Source: Lampris incognitus (Eukaryota; Chordata; Actinopteri; Lampriformes; Lampridae). From it: 64,000 nt of DNA. Where the stretch lies: assembly GCF_029633865.1 (NCBI RefSeq), contig NC_079211.1, positions 147,778,050 through 147,842,049 on the forward strand, given 5' to 3'. Below, piece after piece: positions 57,601 through 58,307 of the stretch. The position numbers and the translations under genes were made by a program. How positions within the stretch are numbered: the stretch's first letter is position 1; each line of letters starts with the position of its first letter. The notes below the pieces were generated by a model. The model saw nothing but the letters and a program-made list of their open reading frames with translations, had not been told where the DNA came from and ran no database searches.

Positions 57601-58307
57601 CGGCGCTTACCCTCTTTCCAGCAGGATCACTTGGCCCTCGATGTCGTCTTTGTTCCGCAGCTCCGAGCAGCCGTCTGCTGGCTCCGCCGGCACCAGCAAG
57701 ATCTCCTCATACGACGAAGTCTGCGGGCGAGAGGAGGAAAGGCTGAGAGGCGGACACACGTGGCTGACAACAGCAGCAGCGGAGAGGTCAGAGGGCACTT
57801 ACAAAGTCTCCCCCGAAGTCTTTAGCGGGGGCTGCGCTGAAGATGTACCCGATGTCCTTGGGGCTGATGATCCGGAAATAAAGCAATTCGTTGACCCCAA
57901 GACCTGGAGCAACGTAGTTGTAAGAGAAGTCAGACAAAGGAACACCACCCGCACCACCTGGAAGGTGGTGGCAGCGTTATTAACGCGACGAGCTGCGAGG
58001 CTTCGCGCAGCCCGGCTACGTCACCACACCCCCGCCCCGGTCTCTCACCTGACACGCCGCTCAGGTGCGAGAAGACGCCGCAGAGGCAGAGCGTCCACGC
58101 CGCCGCCTGAGCCGCCGCGGTCCTGCCGAAGACGCCGCCGAGGCAGAGCGTCCACGCCGCCGCGGTCCTGCCGAAGACGCCGCAGAGGCAGAGCGTCCAC
58201 GCCGCCGCCTGAGCGGCCGCGGTCCTGCCGAAGACGCCGCCGAGGCAGCGCGTCCACGCCGCCGCGATCCTGCCCGCAGAGCTCCGTAACGGCACAGTGA
58301 TCCACAT
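54530..58307 (-). CDS. pradc1: PRADC1, secreted PA-domain protein, complete, five exons (gene-level entry)
   Basis: Protease-associated domain-containing protein 1, a secreted glycoprotein made of little more than a signal peptide and a PA domain. Exons on the minus strand: 58307-58049, 57903-57803, 57720-57611, 54962-54795, 54650-54530. They join in frame to about 252 residues. Diagnostic segments are [79 protein letters not shown] and the C-terminus LKQPPWTLW. The human protein is about 188 residues. The excess is all in exon 1, where a tandem repeat enlarges the signal-peptide region. Junctions are GT-AG. The gene converges on anxa3. The role of the family is not well known. Confidence 0.93.
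54795..54962 (-). CDS. pradc1: pradc1 exon 4
   Basis: PA domain core: [20 protein letters not shown], then [19 protein letters not shown] and [13 protein letters not shown]. Confidence 0.96.
55001..55160 (-). mobile_element. SINE, family B, copy 7 (internal deletion)
   Basis: Minus strand. Tail CATCCATCC at 55002 and head to 55160 are present, but the middle of the body is missing. Located in pradc1 intron 3, 40 bp upstream of exon 4. Confidence 0.78.
55161..56345. other. pradc1 intron 3, nothing recognised
   Basis: Unique-looking intron with two G runs (about 55565-55586 and 56165-56176). No gene or repeat family seen. Confidence 0.45.
56364..56960 (+). mobile_element. RTE-like LINE, strongly 5'-truncated, 18-bp perfect target duplication
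   Basis: Same family as the element at 22882 (shared [26 protein letters not shown] and the GTA tail), carrying only the last 600 bp. Flanked by ATTTTGAAATGAAAGTCA at 56346-56363 and 56961-56978. The C-terminal frame is intact to its stop. Confidence 0.93.
57025..57283 (-). mobile_element. SINE, family B, copy 8 (GATC-type, partial)
   Basis: Minus strand. Head GCAGCACCATGGCCCAGTGG near 57283 and the core near 57190 are present. The 3' end is cut before the GATC tail. Confidence 0.78.
57611..57720 (-). CDS. pradc1: pradc1 exon 3
   Basis: Start of the PA domain: [20 protein letters not shown], then [12 protein letters not shown]. The intron that follows is 2.6 kb and contains an RTE insertion. 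Confidence 0.95.
57803..57903 (-). CDS. pradc1: pradc1 exon 2
   Basis: Encodes [20 protein letters not shown], then [13 protein letters not shown], the conserved segment before the PA domain. Confidence 0.95.
58049..58307 (-). CDS. pradc1: pradc1 exon 1: start and repeat-expanded signal region
   Basis: 86 codons from the ATG at 58307 (context GGGACGATGT, A at -3). After [11 protein letters not shown] come four hydrophobic units in two alternating forms, [15 protein letters not shown] (15 aa) and [19 protein letters not shown] (19 aa), that is two 102-bp copies at 58081-58182 and 58183-58284. SHLSGVS then leads to the splice. An ordinary family member has one hydrophobic core here. The frame is also open upstream to 58556, with an in-frame ATG near 58340, so a longer N-terminus is possible. 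Confidence 0.85.

Follow-up and report, generated by a model that had tools for sequence, protein, structure and literature searches.

Signal peptides tolerate much change, yet need one working core. A locus in Lampris incognitus raises the question of what happens when that core is repeated: the predicted signal-peptide exon of a putative PRADC1 gene, analysed here within a 64,000-nucleotide stretch of DNA (the window; contig C1, 147.78-147.84 Mb) from an assembly of 1.48 Gb and 537 contigs. PRADC1 (PAP21) is a secreted PA-domain glycoprotein, and the family, as represented by human PRADC1, has a single-core signal peptide. How could further cores have arisen here, and would they alter the exported protein? 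The answer that we favour, with moderate confidence, is that a small minisatellite within the coding frame of the exon is tolerated, with the secreted PA-domain protein unchanged. A natural series of cores in tandem would make it easy to test how SRP and signal peptidase choose a core and if supernumerary cores are neutral; should its length differ between individuals, the natural alleles would form a series in which to compare the efficiency of export. The description is of one predicted gene model in one assembly.

Gene model and identity

Five exons on the minus strand join in frame to encode 252 residues, with four introns that are all GT-AG and a single stop, at the end. Exon 1 (58307-58049), the predicted signal-peptide exon, has its ATG at 58307 and ends in phase 1, the donor gtgaga following a terminal CAG directly after 58049. 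The spliced model continues with exon 2 (57803-57903), exon 3 (57611-57720), exon 4 (54795-54962) and exon 5, which extends to the stop codon (54530-54650) and carries the N-glycosylation motif NVS (N235). Use of an alternative in-frame acceptor in intron 1 (57904-57957; exon start at 57957) would add 18 residues before the mature chain. Splice sites and reading frame are whole, as in an intact gene and not a pseudogene.

Pfam places one PA domain (PF02225) at residues 129-214 (E 9.9e-13; bit score 48.5, cut-off 23.9). Predicted luminal features are the sequons N185 and N235 and the cysteines 138, 159 and 163, all of which we infer to be used. A PDB search with the protein gave 18 matches at E up to 1, comprising other PA-domain proteins and ribosomal proteins, and no chain named PRADC1 was among these 18. 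The gene is likely PRADC1: the PA domain was found by Pfam, and the name is a putative one, given for resemblance to the human protein. The earlier note had described a PRADC1 exon joined to a normal mature protein; the exon structure, the PA domain and the intact downstream chain agree with that description, the name itself being likely. In the accessible text of PMC10991444, a first screen put pradc1 among the genes that zebrafish, medaka and two pufferfish lack and stickleback has, and pradc1 is not among the six genes retained there after 23 species were examined.

A Pfam scan of nine stretches, eight in the window and one on contig C3, gave matches for six. Those in the window were two Calx-beta frames (6355-6603 and 7875-8114), a set of annexin repeats (46022-46723), a reverse transcriptase (23242-24153) and an open frame of 350 codons at 13616-14665 that matches a Tc1-type transposase (HTH_Tnp_Tc3_2, 1.5e-17; DDE_3, 1.4e-11). 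The sixth, on C3, is a PA-domain exon. Upstream of PRADC1, some 320 bp from its ATG, lies a fold-back element (58624-62066) with putatively hAT-like ends. Its arms are 97-99% complementary (58624-58718 with 61972-62066; 58709-59087 with 61602-61980) and it has 41-bp tandem arrays on both sides, of 5.2 and 15.9 copies. Nested within it is a second inverted pair (59271-60881; 31 bp, 90%), with a 290-bp tandem doublet between the arms.

Four in-frame units in exon 1

In translation, exon 1 (58307-58050) opens with 12 unique residues and continues with four units, 15, 19, 15 and 19 amino acids long, before HLSGVS and a Gly codon that is split. The first 12 codons (58272-58307) form the n-region. 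They are followed on the minus strand by unit 1 (58227-58271), unit 2 (58170-58226), unit 3 (58125-58169) and unit 4 (58068-58124), which together occupy codons 13-80, all in frame. The unique tail, HLSGVS plus the first base of the split Gly codon (58049-58067), is likely the c-region. Read directly from the sequence, the array repeats the basic residue and the hydrophobic part (n/h) and not the tail SHLSGVSG.

Tandem Repeats Finder (TRF) reports the array at 58071-58274 with a period of 102, 2.0 copies, 97% matches and a score of 387. The first 102-bp copy (units 1 and 2, 58170-58271) and the second (units 3 and 4, 58068-58169) stand in register as codons 13-46 and codons 47-80, and differ at three of 99 internal bases: ATC/ACC (I14/T), CGC/CTC (R20/L) and GCC/GCG (a silent Ala difference). 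A fourth difference lies at the edge of the array, where the last codon is GGC in one copy and TCG in the other, the second copy running into the unique tail. The 15- and 19-residue forms differ by 12 bp, and beyond this gap unit 3 differs from unit 2 at only one further base of 45. The corresponding counts are three for unit 1 against unit 2, four for unit 3 against unit 4 and six for unit 1 against unit 4, the figures for unit 4 including three bases at the edge codon. Since short repeats flank it, the 12-bp gap can, as expected, be placed at several neighbouring positions.

The best ungapped self-match of exon 1 scores 90, at offset 102, against a maximum of 16 and a mean of 9.7 in 300 codon shuffles, and the self-similarity is thus far outside chance. 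Translation, TRF and codon shuffles therefore confirm what the earlier note had proposed, namely an exon enlarged by an in-frame tandem repeat into four units of 15 or 19 residues; its two further claims, of 102-bp copies that differ at few bases and of each copy as a diverged doublet, are equally upheld by the counts of differences between copies and between units. With units of 45/57 and 102 bp, each above 6 bp and divisible by three, in a coding exon, the array belongs to the exonic in-frame minisatellites. By comparison with the human signal peptide, unit 4 is probably the original core.

Hydrophobic cores and predicted cleavage

Arg20 interrupts unit 1, which lacks any uncharged run of at least eight residues. 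Runs of that length within the units span residues 29-46, 48-61 and 63-80; a further one, of 10 residues, lies in the tail (82-91). In 11-residue windows, the hydropathy maximum is 1.93 for unit 2 as well as unit 4 and 1.66 for unit 3, and unit 1 has no peak above 1. Three cores are uninterrupted and one is broken; of the four hydrophobic units and alternative h-regions that had been suggested earlier, three stand as such and unit 1 does not. That unit 1 carries an Arg is compatible with redundancy among the units. Arg8, Arg13, Arg20 and Arg28 precede the core of unit 2, the first intact one off the ribosome.

After the start the next in-frame Met is residue 192, and on a crude consensus count the exon end scores best as a donor; a protein made from exon 1 must therefore carry the whole array. 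With translation from 58307, about 87 residues would stand ahead of the likely mature chain, and the suggestion of a very long signal sequence holds if exon 1 is used together with that start or an in-frame one upstream of it.

Would the extra cores change the product? An early cut could leave a later core as an N-terminal anchor or give a heterogeneous N terminus, or the signal could stay uncut as an anchored form. Such outcomes draw on the make-up of units 2-4, each of which is a small n-h module with an Arg followed by 14-18 uncharged residues, and on the unit ends, which read VFG in units 1-3 and VFS in unit 4. Scored with a von Heijne matrix, the two top cleavage sites sit at unit junctions (6.75 after residue 61 and 6.40 after residue 46), above the tail sites (4.78 after 87 and 4.61 after 84); if real, these internal scores would favour partial retention of the repeat. 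Against this, the observed maximum is equalled or passed in 53% of 5000 shuffles of residues 2-89, and the observed count of seven sites at 3.5 or more in 35%, in a comparison that covered residues 1-89 and left the site after 87 unscored. We therefore rejected the high internal scores as evidence, and the matrix scores carry no weight either way. In a shortened single-unit form the tail site ranks first on the same matrix, at 4.78, which shows only that extra sites accompany extra units. A stable anchor is also doubtful, because on an unweighted insertion scale no 19-residue segment is favourable, the lowest sum being +3.0. Taken together, we regard a changed product as unlikely.

A bolder version, to which we give a somewhat smaller chance, is a self-iterated signal peptide in which three or four n-h modules would each engage SRP and be cleavable, with copy number in the population tuning the secretion, anchoring or trimming of PRADC1.

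Copy number and assembly

An alternative is an error of assembly or consensus, the true exon then having one or two units. GC-rich tandem DNA is hard to assemble, and a single copy of the region was found: no second copy or haplotig came up in the 1.48-Gb assembly, where the region gave one match in searches that rate just the top candidates and pass over words that are very common. The length polymorphism between individuals that the earlier note raised is a possibility beside this one copy in one assembly. With the protein as query the genome gave six matches, five to its own exons and the sixth to a separate PA-domain exon on C3; this weak match was rejected as a second copy, being an exon of another PA-domain gene, which we take to be EDEM3-like. 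A 17-base piece of the unit, allowing up to one mismatch, occurs at 11 places in the genome, four in the array and seven elsewhere, against two for the reversed control. The differences at three internal sites argue against a plain duplication artefact, because a pure artefact would be identical, and all units are in frame in a contig of chromosome size, with the window at 147.8 Mb of C1. We judge an assembly error to be improbable.

Transcript start and splicing

The repeat might also go untranslated, if transcripts start at another exon or are spliced inside exon 1. Exon 1 is 74% GC (93% at third positions), and the other two minus-strand frames stay open through the whole repeat as ORFs of 162 and 84 amino acids, the latter stopping at 58061, just beyond it. 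The open frame alone is therefore weak evidence of coding, and the coding status of exon 1 rests on splice phase and on the joined PA domain. A plus-strand ORF of 278 amino acids (57464-58300) was likewise set aside as a by-product of high GC. In-frame ATGs at 58340 and 58367, upstream of the one in the model, are further candidate starts, and two AGs in exon 1 (58283 and 58061) have at least eight pyrimidines in the 12 preceding bases scored. Other observations oppose an untranslated repeat. The donor at the exon end scores 8 of 9 on a crude consensus count, the best of 13 GTs scored; the next donors reach 5, only five bases inside the exon end, and 4, at 58295. The joint between exons 1 and 2 is in the right phase, and up to residue 192 there is no other in-frame Met to serve as the start. 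The CpG-rich stretch around exon 1 (58000-58499; observed/expected 1.16-1.21 and GC 0.56-0.74 in three 200-bp windows) is consistent with a promoter or first exon, the ratio at exon 1 being the highest of the 12 windows sampled. Splicing within exon 1, which has just these two weak acceptor-like AGs, is unlikely, and overall there is little chance that the repeat escapes translation.

Finally, a functional long two-part signal on the NtraC model, with basic units 1-2 targeting mitochondria or elsewhere and the last core exporting, could possibly amount to a new targeting mode and finds some encouragement in the first 87 residues, with no acidic residue and six Arg, in helical moment peaks of 0.45 and 0.47 for windows starting at residues 10 and 13, and in the N-domain of the shrew-1 long signal, which, in the accessible text of PMC2447879, can alone target mitochondria, but we judge it very improbable, the moment being modest and computed without a control comparison, and the near-identical copies speaking against a dual signal that has long been kept.

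Origin of the repeat

For the tolerated in-frame minisatellite that we favour, the following history can be proposed. An ancestral exon of about 37 codons with one n/h core would first have gained a tandem copy of 45 or 57 bp, a 12-bp indel in GCG-rich sequence would next have split the 15- and 19-residue forms, and a 102-bp duplication of the doublet would then have given four units, with 49 extra residues in all. The order of doublet first and duplication of the doublet second is suggested by the alternating forms, which share the GGC/TGC and 12-bp-block differences, and another order of steps is possible. With three differences per 99 internal bases, the second duplication step looks recent. 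Slippage or unequal exchange in a GC-rich, CpG-rich first exon is the likely cause. DNA hairpins were rejected as a driver of expansion, since single-strand prediction folds the array DNA no better than shuffled sequences (z 0.71; 151 of 200 shuffles fold at least as well).

Selection would have purged length changes not divisible by three. Every repeat length (45, 57, 12 and 102) is a multiple of three, which fits selection on frame, a weak indication given about three events, for which the chance expectation is roughly 1 in 27. Of the three internal positions at which the 102-bp copies disagree, two alter the encoded amino acid, and the copies thus show no sign of purifying selection. ER targeting would have been retained, with SRP binding unit 2, the first uninterrupted core, or a later one, and signal peptidase would take off most or all of the repeat to leave the same secreted PA-domain chain; the repeat would be tolerated because signal peptides are removed.

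The window holds 25 non-overlapping tandem arrays with a period of at least 10, the exon 1 array included, and all rows of this kind cover 5412 bases. Taking the best-scoring row per array, five of the other 24 have a frame-preserving period. Long minisatellites lie at 34716-35618 (16 bp x 57) and 51210-52257 (25 bp x 42).

Comparison with known systems

Set against the known PRADC1 (PAP21), the protein is alike in its PA domain, in the C-terminal PPWTLW and in the NVS sequon near the end, and its last unit and tail resemble the usual core and cleavage region. It is unlike PRADC1 in the 49 extra in-frame residues and three extra units of its signal-peptide exon.

In a search of the open-access literature with a few phrases, none of the matches listed described a vertebrate gene with entire signal-peptide cores repeated in tandem, which is a weak negative. 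The earlier note had called repeat growth inside a signal peptide unusual, which is fair as far as it goes, but length variation is known there: the accessible text of PMC4201729 describes an APOB signal-peptide indel (rs11279109, Leu-Ala-Leu, with products of 93 and 84 bp) as a known polymorphism, and that of PMC3124433 reports eukaryotic signal peptides to be enriched in leucine runs, runs of other residues not being enriched. In-frame VNTRs are known too, those in exons often having units in multiples of three, according to the accessible text of PMC12776774. The array is probably a mutation of an ordinary type in an unusual position, and not a new mechanism.

Like exonic VNTRs, the array has minisatellite repeats within a coding exon, with unit lengths divisible by three; MUC1, RUNX2, PRDM9 and the others in PMC12776774 differ in that the accessible text does not describe them as located in signal peptides. 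Like the long two-part signal peptides of the NtraC model (PMC2447879, accessible text), the sequence here may exceed 40 residues if translation starts at 58307, possibly with separate parts, but its length comes from tandem repetition of one unit. With the APOB indel, so far as the text of that source is accessible, it shares an in-frame change of length within the hydrophobic portion of its signal peptide; that change spans three residues, whereas the one described here spans 147 bp and whole n/h units.
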